From a virus: a stretch of 64,000 nt of DNA. Shown in pieces: positions 33,416 through 64,000 of this stretch. Position 1 is the first letter of the stretch, and every line of letters begins with the position of its first letter. The notes beneath the pieces were generated by a model. That model was not told the DNA's origin and ran no database searches. It saw nothing but the letters and a program-made list of their open reading frames with translations. The stretch covers positions 1-64,000 of IMG/VR virus record IMGVR_UViG_3300018931_000001, one strand, 5' to 3'. A program made the translations under genes and the position numbers.

Positions 33416-34879
33416 ATGACAAGGGTTGTAGGTTACGCAAGAGTAAGCACAAAAGAGCAGGCAAACGACTCTAACGCCTTGCTTCAGCAAATCGATCGAC
33501 TCAAAGCTGCTGGAGCAATTGAGATTTTTAGCGACGTGGAATCCGGGTGGAAGAAGAACACAAGACCGCAGCTTGAAGATTTGATGGCGCAAGTGCGATC
33601 GGGCAAAGTTACAGAAGTGATAGTAACTCGGCTAGACAGACTGAGCCGACAGGGCTTGAAAAGCTTTCAAATTTTTGAAGAATTTCTCAACGTGGGGGCG
33701 GTACTCAGAGCTTTAGACGAACCTTTTGACTTAACGACGGCGGCAGGGCGGGCGATGGCGGGACAGTTAATTGTGTTTGCCCAGTTCCACAGCGACCAAA
33801 AAGCGGAATCAGTTCGCGCTGGATGGGCGCACTTAAGAAACAAGAAGGTTGCGATGCAACCACCGTTTGGTTATCTTAAAGTTGATGACGCGCACATTTT
33901 AGACTGTCGCCCGTTTCTGTGCTTGCTAGATGATCGCCGAGAAATGTCAAAGTCGGAAATTGCCAGAGAAATTGTCGAAGCCTTTTTAAAACAACAAACT
34001 TTGCGGTTAGCGTTGCGCGAAATTAATGAGCGCTACGGGTTGAAAGTTTTTGCCCACAACAACACCGCTGGCAAAAAACTCGGGGGAAGAATCGCTCAGG
34101 ACTTATTTCGTTTCTCGCCGGGAGGTCTGAAAAATTGGTTAACAAGTCCGGTTCTGCGCGGACACTTGGTTTACTTGCGAGGAACACCACGCGAGCAAAT
34201 TTATCTAAATACGCATCTTGAGGCAAGACTAATCTCTGAAGAAGAAAGTCGGGAAATAGAACGCATTTTAAACTTCAACCGAAAAGTCCGGGGATTCGGA
34301 ACTACTGCGCTTAAGTATCCCTGCTCTGGGTTGGTGTACTGCGCTCAATGCCGTGGGGCTTGCTATTCCATTTCGGGAGTAAACAACTACCACCGAGCAA
34401 AACGCTTAGGTATCCCGATCGAACACAATCACTACTTTCAGTGTAACAACTGGCGATCACGAGCTTGCGAGAATAAAAAGACCATCAGAATGGAAATTGT
34501 TGAGAAATGTCTTGTTGTTAGTTTGATAACAAGGGCGCAGGCTATTGCCGACATTATGCAAACTGTTCCAGCTAAAGTTGAGTCTCCTCAAGTTAGAGCT
34601 TTGCGAGAACAAGTGCGGGCGCTGCGGGCGATCGGAGAAAACCCGGCAATTAACAGTGCAATTGTGGAAATAGAGAAGCAAATCTCGCAACTATTGCTAA
34701 CAGAAGACAAAGAAATGATTGACAACGAATTTCAGCGCGAATTATTAATCTCTTGCTTTTCTCACCCAGAATTGTGGTTAGAAGCAGACATTGCAGATCG
34801 ACAAAGAGTTTACCGAGAACTAACAGACAAAATCTTAATATCAGACGGGGAAGTAGTGGACGTGGTATTAAAGATTTGA
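33416..34879 (+). CDS. Large serine site-specific recombinase
   Basis: This encodes 487 residues. The resolvase catalytic domain starts VVGYARVSTKEQ with the nucleophile Ser11, and VTRLDRLSR carries conserved Arg residues. A recombinase domain follows, then a Cys-rich zinc-ribbon region (CSGLVYCAQCRGACYS ... CNNWRSRACENKK, about 303-355) and a coiled-coil C-terminal part. Large serine recombinases integrate and excise phages or, in cyanobacteria, developmentally excised elements (XisF type). It likely mediates lysogenic integration. No attachment site could be proved from the window. Confidence 0.92.
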   Translation: MTRVVGYARVSTKEQANDSNALLQQIDRLKAAGAIEIFSDVESGWKKNTRPQLEDLMAQVRSGKVTEVIVTRLDRLSRQGLKSFQIFEEFLNVGAVLRALDEPFDLTTAAGRAMAGQLIVFAQFHSDQKAESVRAGWAHLRNKKVAMQPPFGYLKVDDAHILDCRPFLCLLDDRREMSKSEIAREIVEAFLKQQTLRLALREINERYGLKVFAHNNTAGKKLGGRIAQDLFRFSPGGLKNWLTSPVLRGHLVYLRGTPREQIYLNTHLEARLISEEESREIERILNFNRKVRGFGTTALKYPCSGLVYCAQCRGACYSISGVNNYHRAKRLGIPIEHNHYFQCNNWRSRACENKKTIRMEIVEKCLVVSLITRAQAIADIMQTVPAKVESPQVRALREQVRALRAIGENPAINSAIVEIEKQISQLLLTEDKEMIDNEFQRELLISCFSHPELWLEADIADRQRVYRELTDKILISDGEVVDVVLKI

Positions 34880-35013
34880 CTACTCCGATCGGACTTGATA
34901 GCTTGTCGCTCTAAATGCTGTACTACCATCCGTCGTAAAACTTGCTGTAATGTTTCCATTGTATTTCTACTTAACTATTATTGTACTAATTCAATAGAAT
35001 AATAACTACAAAA

Positions 35014-35048
35014 TTGGCAAACGTCAAGCACCGTTTTGCAAGTATAAT
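35014..35048 (+). promoter_or_regulatory. Promoter and imperfect operator of the HTH regulator
   Basis: TATAAT (35043-35048) is a perfect -10 element 28 bases before the ATG at 35077. Just upstream TTGGCAAACG (35014-35023) and CGTTTTGCAA (35032-35041) form an imperfect inverted repeat, 8 of 10, overlapping the -35 area. Autoregulation by the encoded protein is plausible. The 34880-35013 stretch holds no gene that I support. Confidence 0.6.
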
Positions 35049-35076
35049 GAATCAACCTGTCTTACCTTAATTTACA

Positions 35077-35979
35077 ATGGCAACAACTACTACTGGTCCC
35101 CGATCGGCTAGAGGCCCTCGCTCTACCAAACACAAAGATGCAGGCTCTCAATCACCTCTTTTGCCGGAACCCAAGACAAAAGAACAAGAAAGCTTTGTGA
35201 GACTAGCGATTTTATTGAGACACTTGCGTCAAGCGAAGCAACTGACTGTGCAACAAAGAAAATTCTTGTTTGAGAATTTACCGAACTTGCCCGACGAACG
35301 AGAACTAGAGCCTTTAACGCAAGCTACTTTTACCGAAAAAATAGAAAAAGTCTTTGATGATGGAAAGACTTTGAGTTCCGGAGCCTTTCAGCGGTGGGAA
35401 GACGGAATAGGCTTGCCAGAACCGCTAAATCTACTGCGAATTGCGAAACTTGCAAGAATGTCAATGGATCAGTTATTTGCTTACCTCTACCCTGACGCGG
35501 ATGTCTCAACACCAGATGTGTTTCCAGAAAAAGACACCTCAAAATTGTTGAAAAAAATAAAAGCACTCAAAGATCCAAATATTCTTGCAGAAATAATTAT
35601 GGCTGCAAGCCAGACCTGGAAAGGAATAATGGAAGAAAGTGTCAGTTGGTCAACTAAAAGCAACTCAAAAAACGAAGAAGAAGCACTAGGTATTAACCTC
35701 TCAAAATCTCAACGTCAAAAGCTTGCATTACTTTTAAAAAAGAGCTTGGAGACAAGACCAAACGAAAGTCTCCCCGACTTAATGAGGGATCATATCTTGA
35801 CAGCAAACCCTAACACAAAGTACAGCAAGTCTTCACTTGAGTTGGTTGCGTCAGCTTGCTGTGAAATAAAGATATGGGATGAAGATGGACTTTTCTTGAA
35901 GCAAGATCGAACTTATGAGAACCGACTGGAACAACTACTTGCAGACTTAGAGAAAAGTCCTTTACTTCAAACTGTCTGA
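35077..35979 (+). CDS. HTH regulator, candidate lysogeny repressor
   Basis: This encodes 300 residues. The N-terminal 30 residues are Thr/Ser/Pro-rich. Residues about 45-150 hold a Cro/CI-like helical domain (VRLAILLRHLRQAKQLTVQQRK ... SSGAFQRWEDGIGLPEPLNLLRIAKLARMSM). The C-terminal half is helical, with no Ser-Lys autoprotease motif seen. Position next to the integrase and between palindromic operators makes it the best repressor candidate. An excision or partition regulator is an alternative. Confidence 0.6.
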   Translation: MATTTTGPRSARGPRSTKHKDAGSQSPLLPEPKTKEQESFVRLAILLRHLRQAKQLTVQQRKFLFENLPNLPDERELEPLTQATFTEKIEKVFDDGKTLSSGAFQRWEDGIGLPEPLNLLRIAKLARMSMDQLFAYLYPDADVSTPDVFPEKDTSKLLKKIKALKDPNILAEIIMAASQTWKGIMEESVSWSTKSNSKNEEEALGINLSKSQRQKLALLLKKSLETRPNESLPDLMRDHILTANPNTKYSKSSLELVASACCEIKIWDEDGLFLKQDRTYENRLEQLLADLEKSPLLQTV

Positions 35980-36162
35980 CTTGTAGTTAACCCATGAGTC
36001 AATCGTCCTTTTTGCTTCTTCAAGTGCTTCACTCTCATTCTTTGATGTGCCACTTATTCCGATGTAATACTTTGAACACATGATTTCCCAGTTGTTCCCA
36101 GACACAAGCAGCAAATAATTCTGATAGCAAGACAGGTTGTCAACCTGAAAATGTGAAGACAT
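35962..36162 (-). CDS. Small unknown protein
   Basis: This encodes 66 residues. The 3' end overlaps the regulator gene by 18 bases, tail to tail. It contains YYIGISGTSKNESEALEEAKRTID, which resembles a short alpha/beta fold. Its 5' end faces the TGTCAACA palindrome. The family is not recognised. Confidence 0.5.
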   Translation of the reverse strand: MSSHFQVDNLSCYQNYLLLVSGNNWEIMCSKYYIGISGTSKNESEALEEAKRTIDSWVNYKSDSLK

Positions 36163-36208
36163 GGCGGTTAAAAAATAGTTTATATTGCTTTCACAAAAGC
36201 AAAAATTA

Positions 36209-36227
36209 TGTCAACAAAGTGTTGACA
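36209..36227. promoter_or_regulatory. Perfect 8-3-8 palindromic operator
   Basis: TGTCAACA-AAG-TGTTGACA spans 36209-36227. The right arm also contains TTGACA, a -35 consensus, although no -10 at standard distance is obvious. It lies between the leftward 66-residue gene and the rightward replication module, which is the right place for a lytic/lysogenic switch operator. Confidence 0.7.
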
Positions 36228-36406
36228 AAAGATCCGTAATAAGTTCCACTATAAATGAGGTGCATCTCTCAATTACAGCGGAACTCTTAACAAGGCGACA
36301 CTCAAAGCTTAAACCCTTTGAGCTTGTTAGTGCAAGAACTCTTAAAAGTTCTTCCACTGAACGGTTGAAGTGCACTCCATACACTGAAAAATGGAGAACA
36401 GGGAAA

Positions 36407-36505
36407 ATGGCAGAGAACACTTACGGATACACGGCTACCAATCAAGATGGCGATCGCGAAGAAGTCCCGGAAGGGAACGAACAAGGCGACAGTAAAGGCG
36501 GTTAG
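36407..36505 (+). CDS. Possible small ORF
   Basis: This encodes 32 residues from ATG 36407 (MAENTYGYTATNQDGDREE), with AGGG six bases upstream; it is acidic and Gly-rich. It ends 16 bases before ATG 36522 of the next gene. Another start of that next gene at 36447 would overlap it. Coding status is uncertain. Confidence 0.35.
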   Translation: MAENTYGYTATNQDGDREEVPEGNEQGDSKGG

Positions 36506-36521
36506 AAGAGGATGTAAGCAC

Positions 36522-37061
36522 ATGGTAACGGCAGCTCCACTGGTCAAATCAACGGAAGATGGTAAAGTCATGGTTCGCCTATTAGCAAACCTAGGAAGGG
36601 AGCTAGCGCGAGAGCTGGCGGATGCAATGGCTAAATACCATCAAGCGTCTGGTTTGGGGCTTGCCGATCGCCAGAGATTGGCTGAAATTCACTATTTACG
36701 TTTAGAGCAACTGCGGCGGGTAGAAAAAATAATCACGCCCGCCGCAACCCTCAAACGTAATTATCTAGATAGTGATTTGAGCTGTCTTAAAATTGTGTGG
36801 AGTAACGAACAAGGGGGCAACAAGTCCAAGACTGTCCCCCCTTCTTTTGATTGCGAATTGTCTAAATGCTTATTGAGAGGAGACAGTTTAGCTCAAATTC
36901 TTTATACAGCAGAAACAGGAAAAAGAACGTTTTCTGCCGATCCGGAAACTCATAAAAAAGGAATGATCCCTCAATGGGTTCGCGAGTGGGAGGAAAAAAA
37001 CTACAGCCTTAAATTTATTCCCCCTGACTTTGCTGATTGGGTGAAGATAAAACTTGATTGA
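36522..37061 (+). CDS. Unknown replication-module protein
   Basis: This encodes 179 residues from ATG 36522, with AGAGGA upstream. ATG 36447 would add a very basic 25-residue N-terminus but lacks a ribosome site. The N-terminal half is helical (VRLLANLGRELARELADAM), and the C-terminal half contains a Trp/aromatic-rich tail. It is the first substantial gene of the replication region. The family is not recognised. Confidence 0.6.
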   Translation: MVTAAPLVKSTEDGKVMVRLLANLGRELARELADAMAKYHQASGLGLADRQRLAEIHYLRLEQLRRVEKIITPAATLKRNYLDSDLSCLKIVWSNEQGGNKSKTVPPSFDCELSKCLLRGDSLAQILYTAETGKRTFSADPETHKKGMIPQWVREWEEKNYSLKFIPPDFADWVKIKLD

Positions 37062-37104
37062 TATCTAAATAATCAAGTTGTAATATTGAAATACACTATA
37101 GAGA

Positions 37105-37150
37105 AGGGAAAACTAAAGCTGCGCTTAGTCTTCCCTATATTTGTCTAATT
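37105..37150 (+). terminator. Terminator-like hairpin after the 179-residue gene
   Basis: AGGGAAAACTAAAGC (37105-37119) pairs imperfectly with GCGCTTAGTCTTCCCT (37121-37136) and is followed by ATATTTGTC. A TATAAT at 37187-37192 then marks a possible new promoter. Confidence 0.6.
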
Positions 37151-37216
37151 TGTTTTTCGTGGTATTAGAAAAATATTGTATTATCATATAATACTTATAC
37201 TTGAGATTTGGTAAGC

Positions 37217-37399
37217 ATGACCAGCAGTACACCCAAAAGAATGACTTGCAGTATCACTGACGAACTGCTAACTGACCTTGACGAAGCCTGCTGGCTGAGC
37301 CGCACAAACTGATCAAAGTTTGTCAGCAAGGGCGTGGCGGCTTATCTCAAGAAATTTCACAAAGCGAGGGAGAAGCAGCTCGAAACAACAGAGGCATAA
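37217..37399 (+). pseudogene. RHH regulator gene with in-frame TGA
   Basis: From ATG 37217 the frame reads MTSSTPKRMTCSITDELL, then DLDEACWLSRTN, a TGA at 37310-37312, then SKFVSKGVAAYLKKFHKAR and a stop at 37397. Across the TGA this matches a ribbon-helix-helix protein of CopG type, where an Arg is expected at the TGA position. CGA to TGA would need a single transition. TGA is used as a normal stop elsewhere in the window, so a nonsense mutation (broken antitoxin or repressor) is more likely than recoding. Confidence 0.7.
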
Positions 37400-37400
37400 A

Positions 37401-37703
37401 ATGTCTGACTATACAGTAAGAGGTCAAGTATTGCAGGTTTCAAAAGATCGTGTCTTAATTCATCTAAGTGGAATGATGGATGATGTTCGGTCAGATTGGA
37501 TTCCTGTGCCATCGACAATGCCTCAATGGGCAAAAAAAGAAAACAGCCCAGTGTTTAAGGCAATTGTTAATATCGATGAAATAACAGAATTAACGTTTGA
37601 ATACTTGAGGCAAAATCCTAACTGTTTGAAAAGATTTTCCTGTCGCCCAATGCCAAAGAATCTTGACTGGCTTTTTGATGATAGTGAACAATGCTCAGAA
37701 TAA
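37401..37703 (+). CDS. Unknown protein
   Basis: This encodes 100 residues from ATG 37401, one base after the stop of the broken RHH gene. It is beta-rich at the start (YTVRGQVLQVSKDRVLIHLSG), with a helical end. The 3' end overlaps the RusA gene by 13 bases, implying co-translation. The family is not recognised. Confidence 0.65.
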   Translation: MSDYTVRGQVLQVSKDRVLIHLSGMMDDVRSDWIPVPSTMPQWAKKENSPVFKAIVNIDEITELTFEYLRQNPNCLKRFSCRPMPKNLDWLFDDSEQCSE

Positions 37704-38089
37704 TCCTGAAAGGCAAAGTAGTCCCAAAAGCCAGACCTCGCCTTAGCGGACGTAAACACGTTCACCTACCGCCAAAATACGCTGCATGGAAACAGGAAGC
37801 TGTCCTCAATCTAAGAGACGTGAGGTACGTCGCTTCCGGCAAAGTCAGTCTAGAAATAACCTTTGTCAATGCTCTGCGCGAGAATGCTGACTGCGACAAC
37901 GCAGCAGGTGCAATTATGGATGCGCTTGTGGAGAGCGGAGTGCTGGTTGGCGATAGTGTTGGGACAATCAGCAAACTGGTTGTGGAAAACTACAAAGAGA
38001 AAAAACCGAAGATTGCGTCGCAAACCCTAATTGTAATCAACAACAATTATGAAGCAAATATTGACAAGATTAGAGAGTTTTTAAACTGA
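37691..38089 (+). CDS. rusA: RusA-type Holliday junction resolvase
   Basis: This encodes 132 residues. The N-terminal KGKVVPKARPR and the acidic motif ADCDNAAGAIMDALVESG, followed by VGDS, match RusA: Asp67, Asp69 and Asp88 take the places of the catalytic aspartates. RusA cleaves four-way junctions during recombination and replication restart and may debranch phage DNA before packaging. Its context with helicase and primase genes fits. Confidence 0.9.
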   Translation: MLRIILKGKVVPKARPRLSGRKHVHLPPKYAAWKQEAVLNLRDVRYVASGKVSLEITFVNALRENADCDNAAGAIMDALVESGVLVGDSVGTISKLVVENYKEKKPKIASQTLIVINNNYEANIDKIREFLN

Positions 38090-38520
38090 ACCAGTTGCTT
38101 GATTCAAGCAGTATCCCTCTTCACTGTCCAGATAAACTGTTTTGGTTTCCAAAATAACTGTACAGATAAGACGACAAAGGCACCCAGACAAGCAAATTGG
38201 CGCAACTGATAGCTCACGCCCCATCGCCACACCGCCCTACCGCGACACATTTCGCAATCTTGCGAGTAGTAACAACTCTTGTGTAATAATAGAGTCAGCT
38301 CAGTTTACCAGCCTCGGCTGTAAATGGGCAAAAAAATATCGCTCATGCTTGGCGGCGAAGCGATACCTCAAAGGATTCTCAATTCTGTTCAGATGCAAAC
38401 TTTTTAAAGTTTGAATATTATTTCACGAGTATAGCATCAACACCTGTGAAACGTCAAATTTGCAGGAAATATCGAAAAATCTGGTAGAGTTAAGGGATTG
38501 AGGATTGTGTAGCTGCCAAG
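38090..38520. other. Intergenic region before the helicase gene
   Basis: In these 431 bases I see no gene that I would support. A frame at 38142-38414 lacks a ribosome site and looks non-coding. A 15-base palindrome TTTTGG-TTT-CCAAAA lies at 38140-38154. The region is a candidate for a promoter or a replication origin, but no iterons were recognised. Confidence 0.5.
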
Positions 38521-38562
38521 CATGAGCGAGTTCATTAATGAACTTGGCAAGGAAAGCTCATG
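38521..38562 (+). promoter_or_regulatory. Stem-loop covering the helicase start codon
   Basis: CATGAGC (38521-38527) pairs with GCTCATG (38556-38562), which contains the helicase ATG (38560). Nested inside is the perfect 16-base palindrome AGTTCATTAATGAACT (38529-38544), and the ribosome site AAGGAAA sits in the loop strand. In mRNA this would mask the start; in DNA the palindrome could be an operator. Confidence 0.6.
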
Positions 38563-40284
38563 TTTATTCAACCAGTTACTTATAATCTCAGGGATTATCA
38601 AGAAAACCTCATCCGCCAGATATTCGCCAGTTGGCAGACCAAACGCAGTGTCATGCTGCAATTACCGACTGGTGGCGGAAAAACAATCTTGTTCGCATAC
38701 CTCGCCCGCGAATTTGCCAAAAAAGGAATGGGGGTACTGGTACTGGCGCACCGGGAAGAACTGTTACTGCAAGCTCAGGAGAAGTTAGAGGCAGTTACTG
38801 GAGTTCCGGCGGGAATAATTAAGTCCGGCTACCCGGTGTATTCTTACGATCTCCAGGTTGCCTCTGTTCAGTCTTTAGTCCGACGCAAGAACAAACCCGA
38901 CGCGGGGCTGGTGATTGTAGACGAGGCTCACCACGCATCTTCTAAGACTTACACCACAATTCTTCAAGCCTACCCAGAAGCTTATGTTCTGGGCTGCACC
39001 GCCACACCGCACCGGATCGACGGTCAAGGGTTCAAGTGGTTGTTTGACGAGCTAATTTGCGGCCCGTCAACAGGAGAGTTAATCGAACGGAAATACCTCT
39101 CGCGTTACAAGCTATTTCAGGGCGTGAAAGTGGTGGACACTTCAAAAACCAAAACCACCGCCGGAGATTTCAATAAGGCAGCACTAGCCCACGAAGTTGA
39201 TTTACAAATTGAGCCGATCGACGTAGTGAACGAATGGCGCAAACGAGCCAACGGGTTGCGAACCGTTGTCTTTGCGGTGGACATCGCCCATTCTCGGCAG
39301 TATGCAGAAGCATTTTTAGAGGCTGGCATCATTGCAGAACACTTGGACGGGGCGACGGGCAAAGAGGATCGCCGGGATATTTTGCATCGGTTTGGAAGCG
39401 GGGAAACGACGGTGCTATGCAATTGCGGAATTATTTCGGAGGGTTTTGATTTACCTGCGATCGAGTGCGTTCAAGTTGTACGCCCCACCAAGTCGCTATC
39501 AATGTGGCTTCAAATAGTCGGGCGGGGGCTTAGACCTGCACCAGGGAAAGAACACGCCGTAATTATTGATCACACTACTAATTGGAAATTTTTAGGACTT
39601 CCAGATGAAGATCGGGAGTGGACACTTGAACCAATAAGCATTGACAGCAGTGCAAAACGTTTCTTGCACATTGTTTGCACGGATTGCAACCACGCTTTTA
39701 AACCCCTGCCCCACGAAACAAAAGCGCTGAAATGCGAATGCCCGAATTGTCGATCCATTCATTGTTTTGAGATTGGAGAGGGAGGTATAGCATTAACTGT
39801 CAAAACTTTGGATGCGAACACCAAAGAGGAAGAGATTGATTTAGATGTCGATCCAGATCTCAAAGTTTTAATTGATTACTATTATGAGCTTTGTTCTGTG
39901 CACGGTCAAAGGCTAGCTTCTGTCTATTTCAATTTTGAGGAGGAGTGTCTAGACATTTTGCACAAGGTGTCTATTGGTACGTGGAGGTATCTAGCTCAGA
40001 AACTAGGATACAAGAAGGGGTGGGCTTGGTACAAGTGGAAAAACGCACAAAATCAAAGCAATATCAACGAAAAAACTTTGAAATCAATGCCTGCACACAT
40101 AAATCCCAACAAAGCGGAAGGTAGGCGCAAATACATTAACTGGATTAAGCGTACAGGGTTTGAGCAGATTGAAGAGATGAAGCTAGGTAAGACTACATTT
40201 ACCGCATCAGAACTGGGGATAGGAGATGATGATTTTCTTGAATTACTGAAACCATTAACGGAAGACGACTTTATTGATTGGTGA
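38560..40284 (+). CDS. DEAD/DEAH-box SF2 helicase
   Basis: This encodes 574 residues. Walker A LPTGGGKT (35-42), DEAH box VDEAHH (120-125), motif III CTATPHR (146-152) and motif VI QIVGRGLRP (318-326) are all present. A Cys-rich zinc-binding insertion (CTDCNHAF ... CECPNC) follows at about 374-401, and a C-terminal helical domain completes it. It resembles phage helicases of the UvsW/RecG-like or type III restriction-helicase-like class. It should unwind branched DNA in replication or recombination beside RusA. Confidence 0.92.
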   Translation: MFIQPVTYNLRDYQENLIRQIFASWQTKRSVMLQLPTGGGKTILFAYLAREFAKKGMGVLVLAHREELLLQAQEKLEAVTGVPAGIIKSGYPVYSYDLQVASVQSLVRRKNKPDAGLVIVDEAHHASSKTYTTILQAYPEAYVLGCTATPHRIDGQGFKWLFDELICGPSTGELIERKYLSRYKLFQGVKVVDTSKTKTTAGDFNKAALAHEVDLQIEPIDVVNEWRKRANGLRTVVFAVDIAHSRQYAEAFLEAGIIAEHLDGATGKEDRRDILHRFGSGETTVLCNCGIISEGFDLPAIECVQVVRPTKSLSMWLQIVGRGLRPAPGKEHAVIIDHTTNWKFLGLPDEDREWTLEPISIDSSAKRFLHIVCTDCNHAFKPLPHETKALKCECPNCRSIHCFEIGEGGIALTVKTLDANTKEEEIDLDVDPDLKVLIDYYYELCSVHGQRLASVYFNFEEECLDILHKVSIGTWRYLAQKLGYKKGWAWYKWKNAQNQSNINEKTLKSMPAHINPNKAEGRRKYINWIKRTGFEQIEEMKLGKTTFTASELGIGDDDFLELLKPLTEDDFIDW

Positions 40285-40357
40285 GGACTAGCGCAAGCAT
40301 CTAATAAAAAAACAGACCCGCCATTAGCAAGCCTGAAGAATCAAAAGAATTTATTTT

Positions 40358-43741: not shown

Positions 43742-43822
43742 GCTTTGGCTTTCAATACCAGTTCGCTTGTTAAAGCTGTAGTCGCAAGATTTTGTAAAGG
43801 TTTAGAAGTTTAGAGGTTTGTC

Positions 43823-44260: not shown

Positions 44261-44282
44261 CACCAACAAAATGGTTAAAATA

Positions 44283-44332: not shown

Positions 44333-44381
44333 GCGCCGCAAACGCCGAGACTCCAAAGGCCGTAACCGAAGCAGGGTCACA

Positions 44382-44861: not shown

Positions 44862-44888
44862 ATTATTAATTTACAGAAAAATCAAACA

Positions 44889-55426: not shown

Positions 55427-55430
55427 TAGT

Positions 55431-55736
55431 ATGCCTTCAAGTTCCGCGCCTTCACCTCCTCCTAGTCCTGAGAATCCTTTGTCTCCAGAGACATTAGAGA
55501 CGCCTGATCCGGCTCCGCTAAAACCAAAAGTGGAGGCGGGTGTGAAAAAACCGAGTGATGCCTCAAAAGTAACTGCGCCGTCAGGTAAAGCTGATTATGC
55601 GTCAGACTATTTCAAAATGTTGGGTTTGCAAGTTTGCCCTAAATGTGGCAATAAAAAGCAAACCGATGGCTACAACAATGTGATTTGTGGAATAGGTGAA
55701 TCCAGTTGTCCAATGATTGAGGAGTTTAAAAAATAA
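55431..55736 (+). CDS. Small Pro-rich protein with zinc-ribbon-like end
   Basis: This encodes 101 residues from ATG 55431. A Pro/Ser-rich half is followed by VCPKCGNKKQTDGYNNVICG, a Cys pair with a further Cys, perhaps one metal site. It ends where the next gene starts (TAATGG overlap). The function in the head module is unknown; a decoration or connector role is possible. Confidence 0.55.
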   Translation: MPSSSAPSPPPSPENPLSPETLETPDPAPLKPKVEAGVKKPSDASKVTAPSGKADYASDYFKMLGLQVCPKCGNKKQTDGYNNVICGIGESSCPMIEEFKK

Positions 55737-56542
55737 TGGCAACTGGACATCTGACAAACACTGGTTCAAATATTTACTTAAACCATCTGTTTCGGGGACA
55801 ACAGAAAAACAATGGTACACCCTATCTTGCGCCATTTTTAACCATGCCCTCAAAACAGGGTCCCGGTTCAGAGCCGACAGGTGCAACCAGGATTTTAATG
55901 ACCCCTCAAGACTGGCAAGCACCCGTTGGTGGTTCAACAACAACTATTAAAAACTTGGTTTTTCCAAGGTCTACCGGATGGAACGGCAACATCATTGCTC
56001 TCGGAGTTTTTGACAGCGCTAGCGGTGGCAGTTGCTTTGCTTATTTCATCCCGGACGATGGAGAATTAATTGAAGTTAATGATTCTCTGATTGTGCTGGC
56101 GGGTGGGCTATTGCACAGGTTTGATTCTGGGTTTATGTCGTTAAACTTACAAAATGCAATTCTTAATGACTTGTACCGCAGTATCCCATTACCCCTGTTT
56201 CCCACGCTCTCAGTGGCTCATTACAGTAGCGCACCTGCCCCCATGGTTTCACCAACGATCGGAGGTACAGAACCGACAGACAGCGCATACAGTCGCCAAC
56301 CCGTAGCTATTAACGGGACAGCATTTGGCGCGGCGACAAGTGGCAAAATTTCAACTATTATTCCTTTTTCGTTTGCTCCTGCGACAGTCGCCCAAGGGTT
56401 GCGAACTCACTGGGGTTTGCATGATGCGCCCACTGCTGGAAACTTTCAAGTCGGTGGTGTTTTTGATGCTCCGCTAAAGACAGTAGATGCTGGTGATCCA
56501 TTTACGTTGACTAAAATCACGATCGGGCTGGATGCTGCGTAA
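55736..56542 (+). CDS. Head or connector structural protein
   Basis: This encodes 268 residues, overlapping both neighbours by one base. It is beta-rich, Gly/Ser/Thr-rich and without charged coiled coils. It resembles the virion structural proteins that follow the capsid in many phages (decoration or neck proteins). The exact role is not established. Confidence 0.6.
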   Translation: MATGHLTNTGSNIYLNHLFRGQQKNNGTPYLAPFLTMPSKQGPGSEPTGATRILMTPQDWQAPVGGSTTTIKNLVFPRSTGWNGNIIALGVFDSASGGSCFAYFIPDDGELIEVNDSLIVLAGGLLHRFDSGFMSLNLQNAILNDLYRSIPLPLFPTLSVAHYSSAPAPMVSPTIGGTEPTDSAYSRQPVAINGTAFGAATSGKISTIIPFSFAPATVAQGLRTHWGLHDAPTAGNFQVGGVFDAPLKTVDAGDPFTLTKITIGLDAA

Positions 56543-57198
56543 TGCCTACCCAATTCGCAACAGCGACGGCAACAGCCACAACACTTACAGAAGCAGACGA
56601 GGTGCTAATAGTCCGAAATCGTCATGCAGTTGCTAGTGGATTTGTAGTGACTAACGCGATCGCATTGTCACTAGGTCGAGATAGAAATGTGCTTGGTATG
56701 ACTACAAGCACTGCTGTTACTGGTTCCGCTACTGCAATTAGAGAGCGGGTTGTTGACGCGATCGGGCTGCAATCAACTCAAACCGTTTGCGACAAAATTG
56801 CTTCAATGCCTGCGGTCATCGCTCCAGGAGGTAAGCTTTGGCTCAATGGAAAACCGTTACAAGGTCAGCCATTGCAAAAAGGCCAATCCTTGCAAATTAG
56901 GTTTGAATTACTAGGGCGCAAGCTATCAAACCTTAAAGCAAGGTTTAAGTTGTTTAACTTGCAAGGCTTAGAACTGATTGACAAGCTCGAAAATATCGCC
57001 CCCGGCGGTTTAGAGGTTGACTTGGAAACTGTGCAGCCCGGAGGTTTGACGAGTTACATCGGTTACATTTTTATCGATCGAACAGAAACTTTGTTTGCCC
57101 AATTTGCTCGCGAGTTTGAAACTGAGTACGAATTTGAAATCGGCAACTCTAGAATCAATTATCCGATCGAACGCGGTTTTTTAACTTTTAACGGATAG
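56542..57198 (+). CDS. Structural protein, possible neck/tail connector
   Basis: This encodes 218 residues, coupled to the previous gene by TAATG. The first half is Ala/Thr-rich, and the second half is a beta-rich domain (GQSLQIRFELLGRKLSNLKARF). It lies in the connector region. The family is not recognised. Confidence 0.55.
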   Translation: MPTQFATATATATTLTEADEVLIVRNRHAVASGFVVTNAIALSLGRDRNVLGMTTSTAVTGSATAIRERVVDAIGLQSTQTVCDKIASMPAVIAPGGKLWLNGKPLQGQPLQKGQSLQIRFELLGRKLSNLKARFKLFNLQGLELIDKLENIAPGGLEVDLETVQPGGLTSYIGYIFIDRTETLFAQFAREFETEYEFEIGNSRINYPIERGFLTFNG

Positions 57199-57203
57199 TA
57201 ATT

Positions 57204-57644
57204 ATGGCAAACTCGCTTTACATAGATATGCGTTACGAAAGTAACAATATGAAATTCGATGGAGTTGAGCAGCCTGTTTTTGTTCGATCGGATAGCGTGG
57301 TTGTTGTGGGGCCGATCGCTGGTGCTAACTTAACCGGGTTGACCGTTAAAGCTTCTGTCTGCAAAGTGTTGCCTGATGGTTCCATTAGTCCGCCTATTTA
57401 TGCTCGGACTGTCGGCAGTGGCGTTACTCTCAGCACGTTAAATTCCAGCGAAAAAAAAGCAGCCATAGTTTTGATACAGTCAGGAGAGAATGCTGCCGAT
57501 GAACCAGGTCAAAAATACGTTGCCGATATTGAATTTAGTTACGATCAAGATTTTACGGTTGGTACGACAGTTGGAACCGCCACGCCAATGCGAAAAACAA
57601 TCAAAGGAGGATTTAGTATTGAAGAAGATTATACGGTGATTTGA
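57204..57644 (+). CDS. Structural protein, possibly Ig-like
   Basis: This encodes 146 residues, beta-rich with alternating hydrophobic residues (VVVVGPIAGANLTGLTVKAS). It could be a decoration or tail-completion protein. It is in tight order with its neighbours. The function is inferred only from position. Confidence 0.5.
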   Translation: MANSLYIDMRYESNNMKFDGVEQPVFVRSDSVVVVGPIAGANLTGLTVKASVCKVLPDGSISPPIYARTVGSGVTLSTLNSSEKKAAIVLIQSGENAADEPGQKYVADIEFSYDQDFTVGTTVGTATPMRKTIKGGFSIEEDYTVI

Positions 57645-57645
57645 T

Positions 57646-58038
57646 ATGGTTTCTGAACTTGCTGAGTACACTGACGGTAATAAAATATTCGTTTCAGTTG
57701 ATACAGGTGAAATTGAAAAAGACGAATGGGGTCAAACTCAACCAAAAAATAAAATTGTTGAAATTGAAGTTTTTCTTAAAGAATGTCGTGGCACCAATAA
57801 TCAACCTGTGGTTTCTAAACCGGATAACAAGCAAGGTACAAACTCTATAAGAACTTATCTAAAAGGTTATTTGGTAAACCCTATGCAATGGCCAAAAAAT
57901 ATTCGACCAAGTGAATGTGAAGTTGAGTTTTATGGAAAAAGAGGGAAACTTCAGGTTTTATCTCAGTTTCCTAGAGGGTTTAATACTGAAGAACAGACAG
58001 GAGCAATTGTGGAAGGATGGGCAACGTTTCAAGCTTAA
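57646..58038 (+). CDS. Unknown connector-region protein
   Basis: This encodes 130 residues, beginning MVSELAEYTDGNKIFVSVDT, with a beta-rich C-terminus. The 3' end overlaps the next gene by 22 bases. It is probably a head-tail joining protein by position. Confidence 0.55.
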   Translation: MVSELAEYTDGNKIFVSVDTGEIEKDEWGQTQPKNKIVEIEVFLKECRGTNNQPVVSKPDNKQGTNSIRTYLKGYLVNPMQWPKNIRPSECEVEFYGKRGKLQVLSQFPRGFNTEEQTGAIVEGWATFQA

Positions 58039-58457
58039 ATGACGAAATTATTGCACTTAAGACGGCAATAGAAACGCTGACAGGATTGGGGACATATCTG
58101 TTCCCGACTGGTCAAAGTTTAAAAGCTGTTGCAGTAGCCAAACCAAACTTTCCACCAACAGGGACACAAACGCAGGGGTTAGAAATTGTAATTATTCCAT
58201 CAGAAGAGTTAACAGCGACGCCAATGCTTAATCAAGGAATGGGTTGGGTTCAATCACACAAGATAACTCTCAAGCAATGGGATAGCCAAGACACAACGTT
58301 AAAAATAATTGAGCCATTAGTCCAGTTATTAATGCACCTCGATTATTCAGTAAATGTCGGGTTAAGAATTGTTCCCAATCCCAATATTGGTAATATAGAA
58401 ACTAGAAATCTGACAATATCTAAAACTATCATAAACAGGAGGAAACATGGGAACTAG
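58017..58457 (+). CDS. Tail-completion/terminator candidate
   Basis: This encodes 146 residues. In siphovirus gene order the protein directly before the tail tube is often the tail terminator. This one is alpha/beta (SLNDEIIALKTAIETLTGL ... LEIVIIPSEEL) and overlaps the tube gene by 11 bases. The identity is inferred from order only. Confidence 0.5.
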   Translation: MGNVSSLNDEIIALKTAIETLTGLGTYLFPTGQSLKAVAVAKPNFPPTGTQTQGLEIVIIPSEELTATPMLNQGMGWVQSHKITLKQWDSQDTTLKIIEPLVQLLMHLDYSVNVGLRIVPNPNIGNIETRNLTISKTIINRRKHGN

Positions 58458-59160
58458 CTATCAAAACCGGGAGTTACAAAAAGGCTGGAAAACTTCAGTC
58501 TACTGCTGGAGACAGAAAACCAAACCTGTGCTGCCATTTGCGCCTGCCACCCTGACACTGACAGCAGCGGCGACAGAAGGCGGAACAACGATGACCGTAA
58601 CGGGCGCTCCGGCTACGGCGATCGAAAAAGGTAACGTTCTGCTCTTTGTTGACGCTGACGAGCTAGCGTATCTTGCTGAGGTAACGGCTAACAGTACAGG
58701 CGGAGCGCTAACTGTTCGGGCGTTAGCAGAAACTATTCCATCAGGTGCAACGGCGATGTGGCCGCCTGAATTGCTTGATCGGACTGATGCTGAAATTAGT
58801 CGAACGGTTGACACCACTGACACCCAAACATTTAACACGGGTGGTAACAAACTAATTACGACAACTACCAGCAGTCGATCACTGAGTCTGCCCGGCCCTT
58901 ATATGCTGAAAAACGGCGGTTATTGGACGGCGTTCTTTTCAGCAGAAGAGAAAGTCGCGTTGTGGTTTGCCATTCAACACGAAGCGCCCGATCAAGACTT
59001 GGGGACTATTAAAGAAGCCCCATTTATTGCTAAGGGTTACGTCACGGACAACACGACATCGGCGGCTGCTGACGGATTTAGAATGGGCGACTTATCAGTC
59101 GATATTACGGGCGCACCAATTAGTGACTTCCGAGTAGTTGGAATCCCTAACGCAGCGTAA
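58447..59160 (+). CDS. Major tail tube protein candidate
   Basis: This encodes 237 residues, starting at an ATG with AGGAGG a few bases upstream, one of the strongest ribosome sites in the window. The protein is beta-rich and Thr/Ala-rich, as tube proteins are. It precedes the tail chaperone genes in the expected order. Strong translation fits a protein needed in many copies. Confidence 0.65.
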   Translation: MGTSYQNRELQKGWKTSVYCWRQKTKPVLPFAPATLTLTAAATEGGTTMTVTGAPATAIEKGNVLLFVDADELAYLAEVTANSTGGALTVRALAETIPSGATAMWPPELLDRTDAEISRTVDTTDTQTFNTGGNKLITTTTSSRSLSLPGPYMLKNGGYWTAFFSAEEKVALWFAIQHEAPDQDLGTIKEAPFIAKGYVTDNTTSAAADGFRMGDLSVDITGAPISDFRVVGIPNAA

Positions 59161-59168
59161 CTTGAGAA

Positions 59169-59393
59169 ATGACTAAAGTTGCATCTCTTCAAACTAAGGG
59201 TGTTTTTGCTTGCTGTTGCAACATTCACGATTACACAATCCATTGTGAAATGTTGGCAATCAGCGGAAATCAAGAGTCTGAAGCAAAGTTACTAGACGTA
59301 GAAACAGGTAAGCGGTATCCAGTTCGCTTGCCTGTTGGTGCTCACATACTATGGGATTACACTATGGAGAGAATTGTCGATGCTGCCATTTAA
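59169..59393 (+). CDS. Small unknown tail-region protein
   Basis: This encodes 74 residues containing CCCNIHDYTIHCEML, a cluster of four Cys and two His, perhaps a metal site. It overlaps the chaperone gene start by 14 bases. The family is not recognised. Confidence 0.5.
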   Translation: MTKVASLQTKGVFACCCNIHDYTIHCEMLAISGNQESEAKLLDVETGKRYPVRLPVGAHILWDYTMERIVDAAI

Positions 59394-59922
59394 GACTACT
59401 GCCACGCAGCAGGGAGAAAATACGGCGCTGATTGAGGACGGCTTTGGTAACTCGATCGAAATTCCGAAATACGGATGTCTGACCTATAACGAGGAAAATG
59501 CCATAAGTCAATACTATATGGGACTTAAAGATGGTGTTAGTAGAGTTGATGCACGATTATCAGAAATTACCATTTTGCTTCGTTCTAGGTTTAAACTGCC
59601 TGATTTGACAACCGATCAAGTTGCCGAGCAAGCCACAACAATGCCAATGATTGATTGCTTGTACGAATTTGTATTAGGTGAGCGCACTCGGTGGATACCC
59701 AAAGAGGTTTTACTCGAACTGACTGGAGAGGTAGCTAAGGAAATGGCGATCGAAACAGCCCGCCAGTATAAAGGCATTGTCGCCGGACGCCCTGACCTTG
59801 AATTAGAAAAGCGCTGGGTCGTGTTCGCAAAGAAAGGGCCTTGGCTTGAAGGGTTTGAAATCCTTAAAGACTTTGCGGAAGATGAGCCGATGGGAAAGCC
59901 ACTGACTCGAAACCTCAACTAA
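59380..59922 (+). CDS. Tail assembly chaperone (gpG-like)
   Basis: This encodes 180 residues from ATG 59380. ALIEDGFGNSIEIPKYG near the start, a helical middle and LYEFVLGE are shared with the gene at 60313. It lies between the tail tube and the tape-measure end of the module, where siphoviruses encode gpG. The 3' end contains G-GGA-AAG in frame, which can shift ribosomes into the -1 frame that encodes the T domain. Chaperones of this type guide tail assembly around the tape measure and are not in the virion. Confidence 0.75.
   Translation: MLPFKTTATQQGENTALIEDGFGNSIEIPKYGCLTYNEENAISQYYMGLKDGVSRVDARLSEITILLRSRFKLPDLTTDQVAEQATTMPMIDCLYEFVLGERTRWIPKEVLLELTGEVAKEMAIETARQYKGIVAGRPDLELEKRWVVFAKKGPWLEGFEILKDFAEDEPMGKPLTRNLN
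59892..59898 (+). promoter_or_regulatory. Programmed -1 frameshift slippery site
   Basis: GGGAAAG is positioned as G-GGA-AAG relative to the upstream frame (codons GGA 59893-59895 and AAG 59896-59898). This is the same heptamer used by lambda gpG-gpGT. The -1 frame stays open for 136 codons to 60308. Confidence 0.85.
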
Positions 59923-60308
59923 TTGACTGGGAGAGTATTTACTGGAAATTGCGGTTAAATTATCCATCGGACGATCGATTTAATTCTGATAATTTTGCAG
60001 ACCAACCTCTAGTAATTATTGAACAAGCTTTAGAGGCGATCGGCAAAAGAGAGATTGAATTAGGCAACCTAATAGCAACTCCAATCAGTAGAGCGATGTT
60101 GTACATCCTTTCTAGCAAAGGAGTTAAACGCCCCGAGCGTGAACTTAACTCGATCAATCCATACGCACAGGCAATAGAGAGTGAGATTGCTAAGAAAAAA
60201 TACTCTAAAGAGTTTGCTCAGACTTTCCTTAAGTTGTTAAAAGACGGGAAAATACCACACTGGGTAGCTAGCGCGATTGATATCGAAACGATAAATTTAG
60301 CAAGGTAA
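59898..60308 (+). CDS. Frameshift extension (T domain) of the tail chaperone
   Basis: After a -1 shift at 59892-59898 the frame reads ATDSKPQLIDWESIYWKLRL and continues for 136 residues to 60308. The fusion gpGT-like product would be about 309 residues. Independent translation could use TTG 59949, but the continuous open -1 frame across the end of the upstream gene and the exact slippery heptamer favour frameshifting. Confidence 0.78.
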   Translation, partial: ATDSKPQLIDWESIYWKLRLNYPSDDRFNSDNFADQPLVIIEQALEAIGKREIELGNLIATPISRAMLYILSSKGVKRPERELNSINPYAQAIESEIAKKKYSKEFAQTFLKLLKDGKIPHWVASAIDIETINLAR

Positions 60309-60312
60309 CAAT

Positions 60313-60789
60313 ATGACAAGGAATTCCAAGATTGTGAGTGAAATAGCAGAACTTCAAGTAGCGAAAACTGAAAACACTACAGTGTTAAACTTTGTTTCTA
60401 CTGCTGAAAAAAAACAGGTTGAAATTGACGATGGCTTGGGCAACGTAGTAATTGTGCCAAGCAAAGGCGCTGCTGACTGCGTTGAGTACAACAAGGTCAT
60501 GCAATTGCTGTACCGCATGGAAAAAGACCCCACACAGGCTTTAGGAATGGAGGTTGACATAGTAATACTTTGCCTCCGCCACCGTTACAAACTTGCAAAA
60601 ACTGTGACTGATGACAGTGTTTTGTTGGACAAAGATGGCGATCCGGTACCCATATCACTTGTCAAAAAACTGTACGAGTTTTTTATGAAAGAACTCCAGC
60701 TCGAAAGAGTTTTAGACGCGCAAAAAACGGCTATTGAAGGGCGAAAATCCGTGATGCGGATGGAAGATGCTGCGCCTTATTTGGAATAA
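60313..60789 (+). CDS. Second tail-chaperone-like protein
   Basis: This encodes 158 residues. The segment VEIDDGLGNVVIVPSKG ... LYRMEKDP ... VDIVILCLRHRYKL ... VKKLYEFFMKELQ parallels the gpG-like protein (IEDGFGNSIEIPKYG ... IRF/KL ... LYEFVLGE), so the two are probably paralogues on either side of the T extension. A specialised or duplicated assembly chaperone is likely. Confidence 0.65.
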   Translation: MTRNSKIVSEIAELQVAKTENTTVLNFVSTAEKKQVEIDDGLGNVVIVPSKGAADCVEYNKVMQLLYRMEKDPTQALGMEVDIVILCLRHRYKLAKTVTDDSVLLDKDGDPVPISLVKKLYEFFMKELQLERVLDAQKTAIEGRKSVMRMEDAAPYLE

Positions 60790-60794
60790 AACTA

Positions 60795-60875
60795 ATGAAA
60801 GAACTTTTAAACTTTCCGTATCGATCACAACGCGACAATTATTACAATTCCAGCGATTCGTGCAACGTAATTTGA
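60795..60875 (+). pseudogene. Truncated N-terminus of a C39-like peptidase
   Basis: A 26-codon frame, MKELLNFPYRSQRDNYYNSS followed by DSCNVI and a stop, resembles the start of C39-like papain-fold peptidases (P-Y-x-SQRDN-Y-N-x-S-x-x-CN). The full gene follows at 60888 with the related VPTRYLSQQNNRLYRSGTCN. It is a likely vestige of a replaced or duplicated copy. Confidence 0.55.
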
Positions 60876-60887
60876 GAATACAACACA

Positions 60888-61709
60888 ATGGCAAGAGTAT
60901 TTGTTCCAACCCGATACCTATCTCAACAAAATAATCGGTTATATCGCTCAGGAACGTGCAACACCACTTCTATTGCAATGGGTATGGGTAATCACGGGGA
61001 ACCATTGATTCGTCCTGACGGTACTCAGCTTGAAGATTACTTGACTCAATACTGTTTGGACAATGGCTTATCTCGGCATTCTCCAGGGGATTTGGAGGTT
61101 TTGGCGCAGAAGCACGGATACAGGTTCCGATTTAGTGCTTATGCTACTTGGGAAGAGGTCAAAGCTTGGCTGCGTCAAGGGAAAATTTGTATAACTCATG
61201 GCTGGTTTACTGATTTTGGTCATATTTTAGTAATTTGTGGCTACGACGAAGAAAAGCAGTGTTGGATTGTACACGACCCTTGGGGTGAATGGTATCCAGG
61301 TGGATACGACACTAGCGTTTCGGGTGAAGCGTTGGAGTATTCTTTTCGGATGATGTCACGATTGTGCGGGCCCGACGCAGAAAATCAACTCTGGATTCAC
61401 TTCGTTAATGGTAAAAGTGAAGACAAGCGCGTTTGGAAGCCGGGAGAACTTGGAGGGTTGCGGCTTCAGGATATCTACGAGCGCAAGTTGTCGCTATCGT
61501 TGGGGGATGTAAAGAAAGATATAGGGTTGACCAAACAAGTACAGATTTGCCTTACTCGGTTCCCACAGTTTCAACCAGGAACACCAGATGGTAGTTGGGG
61601 CCCGGTAACTCAGAAAGCATTTGAGAATTTGGCTTTTAACTTTCAGGTTGACGCGAGGGTGATCGACTTTAAAACTGCAAAAATTCTGATTGAGGGTAAA
61701 TATAGATAG
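60888..61709 (+). CDS. C39-like peptidase with C-terminal peptidoglycan-binding region
   Basis: This encodes 273 residues. Catalytic Cys24 (SGTCNTTSIAM), His112 (FGHILVICGYD) and Asp130 (HDPWGEW) form the papain-fold triad of Peptidase_C39_2. Residues about 205-270 (QICLTRFPQFQPGTPDGSWG) resemble a PG_binding_1 domain. In a tail module this is probably a virion-associated peptidoglycan hydrolase for DNA entry, distinct from the lysozyme at 9.5 kb. Confidence 0.82.
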   Translation: MARVFVPTRYLSQQNNRLYRSGTCNTTSIAMGMGNHGEPLIRPDGTQLEDYLTQYCLDNGLSRHSPGDLEVLAQKHGYRFRFSAYATWEEVKAWLRQGKICITHGWFTDFGHILVICGYDEEKQCWIVHDPWGEWYPGGYDTSVSGEALEYSFRMMSRLCGPDAENQLWIHFVNGKSEDKRVWKPGELGGLRLQDIYERKLSLSLGDVKKDIGLTKQVQICLTRFPQFQPGTPDGSWGPVTQKAFENLAFNFQVDARVIDFKTAKILIEGKYR

Positions 61710-61747
61710 TTTGTAATCTAAATTAGATTTAACTTAAGAATTAAAAT

Positions 61748-63502
61748 ATGCCCAACGCTTACGGACGCGCTTTTACCACTGCTAATTTTCTTTCTAATTT
61801 GACTGCTTTGAAAGCTATAAATTTTGGCGCGTCCGATCCGAGCGGAGTTTGGTTTGTTGTTCCGAATTCCAGCACGAATAATGTTGAGATTTGGGTATGG
61901 GAACCCGGCTCGGTACTTGCTACTGATGAAGTTTCGGTAGTGCGACCAGATTCTATAGCTCCGGGAAGTCCGGGCAGGTGCTTGCAACGGCTTCAATTTG
62001 ATGCAAGCCAGCTTGGCGGAATTTTAGCAGCTATCGCCACACTCAACACCGCTGGATTGATTGAACGGACGGCTGGCGGTGGCGCTGCCATTATATCTGT
62101 TAGTAACTACGCTAAGACTCTGCTCAATGATGTAGATGAGGATGCAGCACGAGTAACTTTAGGCTTAGGTTCAGTTGCGACTCGATCAATAGGCACAACA
62201 AGCGGACAGGTTAGAGACGCAGGAGACTCGACTTATTCAGATGCCAGGACTCCTCTTTCTCATGCTAGCTCCCATCTTTCAGGAGGAAGTGATGCTTTTG
62301 ATACTACATTATTGCGTCAAACAATTGACTTAGGAAATGTTAACAATACCAGCGACGCAAATAAGCCTGTTTCAACTGCAACACAGACAGCCCTAAACCT
62401 CAAAGCTAATCTCGCTTCTCCAACTTTTACAGGAATCCCCGCCGTCCCAACTGCAACTGCTGGAACAAATACAACTCAGGCAGCAAGCACGGCTTTTGTC
62501 GGCACCGCTATTTCTAATTTAATAAACTCTTCGCCTGCTGTGCTTGATACCCTAGGCGAACTTGCTGCAGCATTAGGCAATGATGCTAATTTTGCAACGA
62601 CAGTTACGAATGCTTTAGCAACAAAAGCACCTTTAAACTCTCCTGTTTTGGTTACTCCCAATTTAGGAACTCCTAGTGCTGGAGTATTAACTAATGTAAC
62701 TGGATTACCTTTATCTACTGGTATAACTGGAACCCTTGCTATTGGAAATGGAGGTACAGGCGCGACAACTCAACAGGGAGCAATTAATGCTTTGGTGGGA
62801 ACACAAATAGCCAACAGATTGCTCAGGAGCAACGGAACTAATACCTTTTTAGCTCAAGCTAGTTTAACTACGGACGTTACAGGTATCCTTCCTATTGCTA
62901 ACGGCGGTACTAATAGCAACACTCAAAATTGGGTAGATTTAACCACGAATCAAAATATTGCTGGGGTTAAAACTTACACAGATACTACTGAATCTACCAG
63001 CACTACTACTGGAAGTGTTAAATACTTAGGAGGACTTGCTGTTGTTAAAAATTTATCAGTAGGCGGAACCATAAAGCAAGATATTAATTATACTTTTAAA
63101 GCTGCTACAAATGTCTCTCAATCTATACCTGCTACTACTTTCACTAAAATTGCTTTAGCTTCTGAGGTTACTGATACAAACAATCAGTATACTGCTGCGA
63201 GTTCAAGATTAGTTGCTAATACTACCGAAGTTTGGAGTTTGTTTATTTTTATAACGTTTAGCTTAGCAGCAGCTTCAAGAATTATATTGTCTGTTTATAA
63301 AAATGGTTCTGAATCGGGAGGAGTAAGGGTTATGGATATTACTCCTTCTGCTGGCTTTTTTGGAATACCTATCACTATCCAAGAAATTAATCTCGTAGCA
63401 ACAGATTATTTAGAAATGTACTGCTATATAGGCTCTGTTCAAAATGTTTACGGAGATGCTACACTAGGAGCTACATATTGGTATGGCAAACGAATAAATT
63501 AA
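61748..63502 (+). CDS. Tail fibre-like protein
   Basis: This encodes 584 residues. The middle has fibre-type repeats: [54 protein letters not shown] and [20 protein letters not shown]. The C-terminal 120 residues form a beta-rich tip. The N-terminal about 110 residues may attach to the virion. Such proteins contact the host surface. It lies upstream of the presumed tape measure, an unusual place for a fibre. Confidence 0.82.
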
Positions 63503-63515
63503 TTAACAAAAAGCT

Positions 63516-63893
63516 ATGGGAGTTCCAATTTCAGAAGATGACGTTACAAGTCTTCATGTCGCCGACAGACTACAAATAAACTTAGCGCAAGCTGAAGAAG
63601 ATGTTGAAAAAATGGAACTTGAAGTTTTTTTTAAAATCTTTACGGTTTTGCCTAACGGCAAAGTAGTTGGAGAACCGTACCTTGATACTGCAAAGCCTTT
63701 GCGTTTTACTTGCAAAAATAATCCAGAGTTGAAAGCTGCAATGGAATTAATTCAACAAACTATAGGGGAAAAACGTTATGAACAGTTGACAGCTCAACCA
63801 GAAATCCCCCCACCATCACAAATTCCTGCGTTGTCAGAAATTTCTGAACCCGTCGAAAATCCAGAGATGATACCACCAATTGAAAACAGCTAA
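63516..63893 (+). CDS. Unknown tail-region protein
   Basis: This encodes 125 residues. A folded N-terminal half (ISEDDVTSLHVADRLQINLA) is followed by a Pro/Glu/Ile-rich tail (PEIPPPSQIPALSEISEPVE). It is probably an accessory tail or fibre-assembly protein. The family is not recognised. Confidence 0.5.
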   Translation: MGVPISEDDVTSLHVADRLQINLAQAEEDVEKMELEVFFKIFTVLPNGKVVGEPYLDTAKPLRFTCKNNPELKAAMELIQQTIGEKRYEQLTAQPEIPPPSQIPALSEISEPVENPEMIPPIENS

Positions 63894-63902
63894 AAAACTA
63901 TA

Positions 63903-64000
63903 ATGAAACCAAAAATAACGTTTAACGGCAGTGCAATTAAGGGTGCTGCGCTCCGAGCTTTTCAAACTATAACGCTCGAACTGGGAGAAACTTTTCAAGA
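63903..64000 (+). CDS. Start of another tail gene (3' truncated by window)
   Basis: The frame opens at ATG 63903 (MKPKITFNGSAIKGAALRAF) and runs off the window after 32 codons. By position it may be the N-terminus of the tape measure or of a further tail protein. If the molecule is circular, it could be the same gene whose end opens the window. Confidence 0.45.
   Translation, partial: MKPKITFNGSAIKGAALRAFQTITLELGETFQ

Follow-up and report, generated by a model that had tools for sequence, protein, structure and literature searches.

Can a tailed phage of cyanobacteria live as a plasmid? The question is raised by a 71,013-bp IMG/VR virus record (IMGVR_UViG_3300018931_000001), whose first 64.0 kb, hereafter the window, encode phage structural genes together with a 1127-residue replication protein, here called Rep. 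The original prediction took this combination for a phage-plasmid with a CyRepA1-type initiator. Phage genes, a circle without recognised host genes and a plasmid-related Rep are all found, while the CyRepA1 identity is not, and a phage-plasmid life style is plausible rather than established. The record is probably a complete, unintegrated temperate tailed cyanophage in which an integrase-replicase block has been exchanged for a cassette that carries a plasmid-type Rep.

Both ends of the record lie inside a single open reading frame (ORF), that of the tape-measure protein. Comparison of the two record ends revealed no exact terminal repeat of at least 9 bp; 5 bp (ATTGG) are common to both. When one ATTGG copy is collapsed, the frame stays open across the junction and an alignment gap disappears relative to two related viral contigs, G396 and G397, where the tape-measure gene is unbroken and the counterparts of the record's end and start are directly adjacent. 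Because the 5-bp collapse both restores the frame and matches two relatives, the molecule is essentially complete at 71,008 bp and is either circular or linear with circular permutation. The end-to-start joining proposed for the parent contig is thus borne out. So is the claimed lack of host chromosomal genes: an ORF review of the record recognised none, neither within it nor as flanks. An excised or packaged phage genome would look like the same host-flank-free circle. No tRNA genes were seen in the window.

Relatives of the terminase occur in the IMG/VR contigs G395, G396 and G397 (81-87 %) and G398 (68 %), and contig C186 of a cyanobacterial genome, G571, encodes a terminase with 76 % and a tail protein with 83 % identity. 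In this 70,735-bp contig, 56.3 kb of phage DNA lie between two perfect 65-bp repeats (8489-8553 and 64806-64870). The right repeat lies inside a tRNA-Ser(GCT), and the genes outside the repeats (an Ffh-like protein, alanine racemase and others) are host-like by eye. G571 is a chromosomally integrated prophage. Beside its right repeat stand a tyrosine integrase, recognised by eye, and a replicase of the Prim-Pol/CHC2/DUF3987 type, which has a homologue, 43 % identical over 63 %, on a 7.6-kb plasmid. Homology between the window and G571 extends over most of the rest but stops between about 31.95 kb and the attachment (att) region, where the window holds the following features.

31954..46686: exchanged cassette of 14.7 kb, from the end of G571 homology up to the att core
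33416..34879, forward strand: large serine recombinase with Resolvase, Recombinase and zinc ribbon domains
35077..35979, forward strand: helix-turn-helix (HTH) regulator, candidate repressor, weak phrog_8 match
37691..38089, forward strand: RusA-type Holliday junction resolvase
38090..38559, forward strand: intergenic stretch upstream of the helicase-Rep pair
38560..40284, forward strand: superfamily 2 (SF2) helicase (ResIII/Helicase_C, phrog_16) upstream of Rep
40358..43741, forward strand: Rep, 1127 residues, plasmid-type replication protein
46687..46715, forward strand: tRNA-Ser(GCT) att core of 29 bp, 28/29 identical to tRNA-Ser

The att core lies near the packaging module in the window phage, as in the tRNA-Ser-integrating group of G571. 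The same 29 bp occur in G396 and G397, followed by phage DNA homologous to the window and preceded by more tRNA-Ser sequence, beyond which G396 continues into other flanking DNA. These junctions of phage and host DNA are prophage ends. Since the DNA on that side of the att core is different in the window, the record represents the unintegrated form. G571 and G396/G397 thus resemble the window phage in terminase (76-81 %), tail protein (83-84 %), gene order and att core. What sets G571 apart is its tyrosine integrase and Prim-Pol/DUF3987 replicase; the window contains no PF00589 tyrosine integrase and gives no tblastn match to the G571 integrase.

The domains of the serine recombinase agree with its earlier assignment as a large enzyme of this class, and cyanobacterial plasmids encode XisF-annotated proteins to which it is 33 % identical over 99 %. 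The SF2 helicase shows 46 % identity to the helicase adjoining a Rep homologue on plasmid pSYN6312.01 and 44 % to one in the viral contig G004. The intergenic stretch ahead of the pair, with 18-nt inverted repeats at 38339-38356 and 38512-38529 and a direct repeat of 13 nt, is a candidate for a control region or an origin; the surroundings of the helicase-Rep genes showed no iteron array.

A cassette that has no counterpart in the close relatives, ends at the att core and includes a helicase-Rep pair resembling a plasmid module might also arise if assembly had fused a phage contig to a plasmid contig across 32-46.7 kb. Such a chimera is highly improbable, given that the circle is formed by one contig whose ends meet within a phage gene, that the RusA and HTH regulator genes of the cassette are phage-like, and that three other viral contigs (G001, G004 and G398) likewise pair a Rep-related protein with phage genes. 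A prophage simply inserted in a plasmid was considered on the basis of size (71.0 - 56.3 = 14.7 kb, the length of the cassette) and rejected: there is only one att core, and the prophage's own integrase and replicase are missing.

What kind of protein is Rep? It has no significant match in Pfam, PHROGs or NCBIfam. By tblastn, 118 plasmid records match it, 30 of them with at least 80 % of the query covered, and the best shows 38 % identity on pMIC7113.03. All named plasmid records among these are cyanobacterial, but for one weak clostridial match. In Pseudanabaena and Acaryochloris, single strains harbour several plasmids, each with its copy of a Rep homologue, and ParA or ParM genes are found near several homologues. 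Plasmid-type replication, as originally proposed, therefore stands in the sense that Rep is homologous over its full length to cyanobacterial plasmid proteins. The family is not confined to plasmids, because a full-length homologue lies at about 7.49 Mb on the complete 11.4-Mb chromosome of Calothrix sp. PCC 7716 (locus L040), where it probably belongs to an integrated element. The nearest relatives of Rep are on Trichocoleus contigs, which match no other window gene save for one recombinase fragment; the terminase is absent from that genome. Loci L030 and L063 look plasmid-like by eye.

Rep does have the layout by which it was first likened to CyRepA1, namely four N-terminal cysteines (C12, C15, C22 and C33), a Toprim-type acidic set (E..D..DxD), a Walker A motif (GTGTGKS) and a weak C-terminal HTH at about 1003-1031. 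It is the type of helicase that differs. The profile NF042913, in which membership means a score above the curated cut-off, covers the helicase region (317-907 of Slr7037); it recognised Slr7037 with 596 bits and a CyRepA1-family protein with 366 bits, but gave no match to Rep even at E<=10. Similarly, DUF3854 (PF12965) is absent from Rep at E<=1 and present in Slr7037 with an E of 3e-50, and BLASTP finds no similarity between Rep and Slr7037. The two profile tests rule out that Rep is CyRepA1. Its N-terminal ~310 columns are nevertheless homologous to the CyRepA1 N-terminus (hhalign probability 100 %), with 37 % identity over 314 residues to a CyRepA1-family protein of plasmid ABRG53g, while the C-terminal helicase half is similar to that of plasmid-encoded PriCT-2 proteins, at 28 % across about 730 residues. 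By sequence comparison, then, Rep is related to CyRepA1 only in its N-terminal ~360 residues, the primase part, and its helicase half is of another type. The N-terminal module thus occurs with differing partners. In Rep it is joined to a DinG/XPD-like helicase and in G001 to D5_N plus DUF5906, whereas G398 combines it with a helicase of the Herpes_ori_bp/CyRepA1-like type.

An AlphaFold2 model of Rep, built from 22 sequences (mean predicted local distance difference test score 77.6, predicted template modelling score 0.56), suggests what the two halves may do. In this predicted model, residues 93-371 resemble the DnaG RNA-polymerase domain (5guj; Z 16.8, 246 residues, 3.8 A), and residues from about 399 to 984 resemble E. 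coli DinG (6fws; Z 20.2, 478 residues, 5.5 A), with XPD also matched. Rep would thus combine a zinc finger, a DnaG-type primase and a DinG/XPD-type SF2 helicase. Pattern scans were made with alignment A3, the 12-row alignment A1 being too diverse for them. In keeping with the fold, E242, D294, D335 and D337 are invariant in all rows of both alignments. Cysteines 497, 521, 524 and 530 are invariant in every alignment row that covers them, and in our reading they are placed like the iron-sulphur ligands of XPD and DinG. On this model Rep could be a fusion, not described before, in which a DnaG-type primase is linked to a DinG/XPD-type helicase, the latter probably an iron-sulphur enzyme. Searches of the open-access literature yielded nothing relevant on a primase-DinG fusion and no account of a phage with a CyRepA-related Rep.

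Rep, the recombinase and the helicase, each scanned singly against viral contigs, gave no match. An alignment query retrieved four viral contigs with Rep-related proteins, G001 to G004, and a fifth, G398, came to light through its terminase. In a tree of 51 N-terminal domains from plasmids, cyanobacterial genomes and six viral sequences, the viral proteins are scattered over six separate positions between the plasmid and genome sequences; some rows are long-branched, which makes exact positions uncertain. Forcing a single viral clade costs 155 log units and is rejected by the approximately unbiased (AU) test (p-AU 0.0006). A purely phage primase clade, a match to which would have refuted the original prediction, is thus discarded. 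Two of the Rep-bearing contigs merit a remark of their own. The 109.8-kb cyanophage record G398 (L131-L136) has near-identical ends of 134 bp and a CyRepA-related protein, and neither a PF00589 integrase nor ParA was found in it; it is a better candidate than the window phage for an integrase-free phage-plasmid. The 11.5-kb contig G002 (L068), classed as viral, encodes a true CyRepA1 (322 bits with NF042913) beside a tyrosine integrase and may be a small plasmid or satellite.

The phage may persist in its host in either of two ways. The serine recombinase might insert the phage into the chromosome, as its resemblance to XisF-annotated proteins would suggest, and Rep would then serve lytic replication only. 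The chances of this integrating life style seem to us evenly balanced. A chromosomal region in G154 has a related terminase (54 %) with a serine recombinase about 15 kb away, the Rep-bearing contigs G001, G002 and G004 possess PF00589 tyrosine integrases, and the integrated G571 itself has a replication protein with plasmid homologues. A plasmid-type Rep alone consequently does not imply a plasmid prophage. On the other hand, no integrated copy of the window phage was found, the attP of the serine recombinase was not located, and the record is the unintegrated form.

Alternatively, the phage may be a true phage-plasmid that has lost its tyrosine integrase, is kept as an extrachromosomal circle by Rep, and uses the serine recombinase to resolve multimers or as an accessory. 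We consider this possible but somewhat doubtful. It would account for the full-length plasmid homology of Rep, for the circular record without host genes and for an att relic kept after the tyrosine integrase had gone, and it has a precedent in mycobacteriophage cluster A, where the integration cassette is replaced by parABS, sometimes together with repA, and where extrachromosomal replication of the prophages was demonstrated by experiment (PMC7157519). The integration cassette is swapped between close relatives in both cases, but the cluster A phages have parABS, whereas the window phage is without parAB and keeps a serine recombinase. ParA (PF13614) and ParB (PF02195) are indeed absent from the window, where ParM was looked for by eye only, although many plasmids with a related Rep carry partition genes. 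Moreover, no host isolate was found with the phage as a plasmid, the terminase and portal searched against PLSDB had no cyanobacterial record among the matches listed, and both the tyrosine integrases of the Rep-bearing viral contigs and the replicase of G571 tell against this life style as they speak for integration. The large serine recombinase is of the integrase type. Some known phage-plasmids carry recombinases, so that its presence lowers the likelihood of a plasmid prophage without excluding it.

For the exchange of the integrase-replicase block, the following course may be proposed. The ancestors would have integrated into tRNA-Ser(GCT) by means of a tyrosine integrase and replicated with a Prim-Pol/DUF3987 protein, as G571 still does. 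This block would then have been replaced, up to the att core, by the cassette of serine recombinase, regulator, RusA, SF2 helicase and Rep, the source of Rep being the cyanobacterial plasmid pool; replacement up to the att core is the simplest history, and the direction of exchange is the one we infer. In replication, the C-terminal HTH or a partner could bring Rep to an origin near the helicase-Rep genes, where the DinG/XPD-like motor, by analogy with DinG and XPD, would open the duplex in the 5'-3' direction, the DnaG-like domain would lay RNA primers, and a host polymerase would copy the circle. That Rep replicates the phage at all is part of this proposal. A more speculative extension, which we advance with reserve, is that the lineage switched from tRNA-Ser integration to a plasmid-style prophage when its integrase and replicase gave way to a helicase-Rep module from plasmids; the att core would then be a fossil, and Rep an undescribed fusion of DnaG and DinG/XPD types.

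Several observations weigh against the proposed exchange and the functions assigned to Rep. G396 and G397 are truncated before the cassette region, which reduces the comparison to one record against one integrated relative, and viral-contig scans turned up no closer relative with the same cassette. The att core could be no more than a relic, but it could also still function if an integrase were provided in trans. As for Rep, the assignment as primase and helicase comes from predicted fold and motifs: a PDB sequence search found neither DnaG nor DinG, and in our reading G296 appears to occupy the position of the second DnaG acidic residue.

Among known systems, the Synechocystis plasmid proteins CyRepA1 (Slr7037, pSYSA) and CyRepA2 (pCC5.2) share with Rep the zinc-finger/Toprim-type N-terminus, the primase-helicase layout and the plasmid context, but the helicase fold of Rep is of the predicted DinG/XPD type and it matches neither NF042913 nor DUF3854. 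Closer to it is a family annotated "hypothetical protein" on pMIC7113.03, pSYN6312.01, pMB05 and P. galeata pPg_04, whose members agree with Rep in domain order and in the invariant catalytic and cysteine residues, and are about 30-38 % identical to it across some 90 % of the query. These replicons are plasmids, several with ParA or ParM, whereas the window gene resides in a tailed phage. Plasmid proteins of Nostocales with PriCT-2 (e.g., on pNsp_h) have a C-terminal helicase half like that of Rep but a different N-terminal primase. Phage and plasmid features also meet in Mic1, proposed to be phage-plasmid-like on the grounds of ParABS and an antirepressor, and in P1 of Microcystis NIES-298, a plasmid with phage-like genes (PMC7156551, PMC12510456); the available portions of these reports name no CyRepA-related Rep.

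What is new here is that a temperate cyanophage has a plasmid-type primase-helicase, distinct from CyRepA1, within an exchanged cassette for replication and lysogeny. The phage and its chromosomally integrated sister share their virion genes but differ in their life-style cassettes, and a plasmid-type primase module is also found in unrelated cyanophages. Should Rep maintain the prophage as a plasmid, cyanobacteria would offer a clear example of a tailed phage-plasmid that uses a plasmid initiator; should it not, a plasmid Rep gene would be of little use for recognising phage-plasmids in this phylum. The predicted DnaG and DinG/XPD-like fusion, encoded on many cyanobacterial plasmids under the mere label "hypothetical protein", would be a testable replication enzyme.

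The remaining genes are those of a tailed phage, as first proposed: a terminase, a weak portal match, head and fibre proteins and a tape measure make up the packaging, head and tail set. The ORF coordinates given in the original prediction are correct.

49183..50586, forward strand: terminase large subunit, Mu gp28-like
50592..51959, forward strand: probable portal protein, from its position and a weak Phage_portal_3 match
53510..63893, forward strand: head, connector and tail module, syntenic in relatives
at 55736, within the head-tail module: phrog_240 head protein/Gp80
at 61748, within the head-tail module: tail-fibre protein
2..1276, forward strand: C-terminal part of the tape measure, the N-terminal part being 64479-71013 of the parent record
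2083-4719 and 5025-7382, forward strand: probable tail proteins following the tape measure, with synteny in G396, G397 and G571
9475-9939: phage lysozyme
21096..22364, forward strand: Bro-N antirepressor
22662..24272, forward strand: HTH/replication-initiation-like protein, weak PHROG matches

The Bro-N antirepressor is a sign of a temperate regulatory circuit. The tape-measure protein is ~2600 residues long and contains internal repeat units of ~200 residues; relatives may not all have the same number of them. The proteins of 58447-59160 and 2083-4719 had no match in INPHARED. Also within the tail module, 60888-61709 has weak endolysin similarity (phrog_10051) and is locally variable (92 % to G396, 44 % to G397). 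At 7387-9158, a family 2 glycosyltransferase and a sulfotransferase, an unusual gene for a phage, adjoin on opposite strands, with 60-72 % identity in G396, G397, G398 and G571. A C5 DNA methyltransferase, a DUF5131 protein and an MT-A70 methyltransferase follow one another at 12662-15777, and the MT-A70 gene is also present in G571 (67 %). Finally, there are 17 copies of GCGATCGC, the HIP1 octamer common in cyanobacteria, where base composition would predict 0.7.

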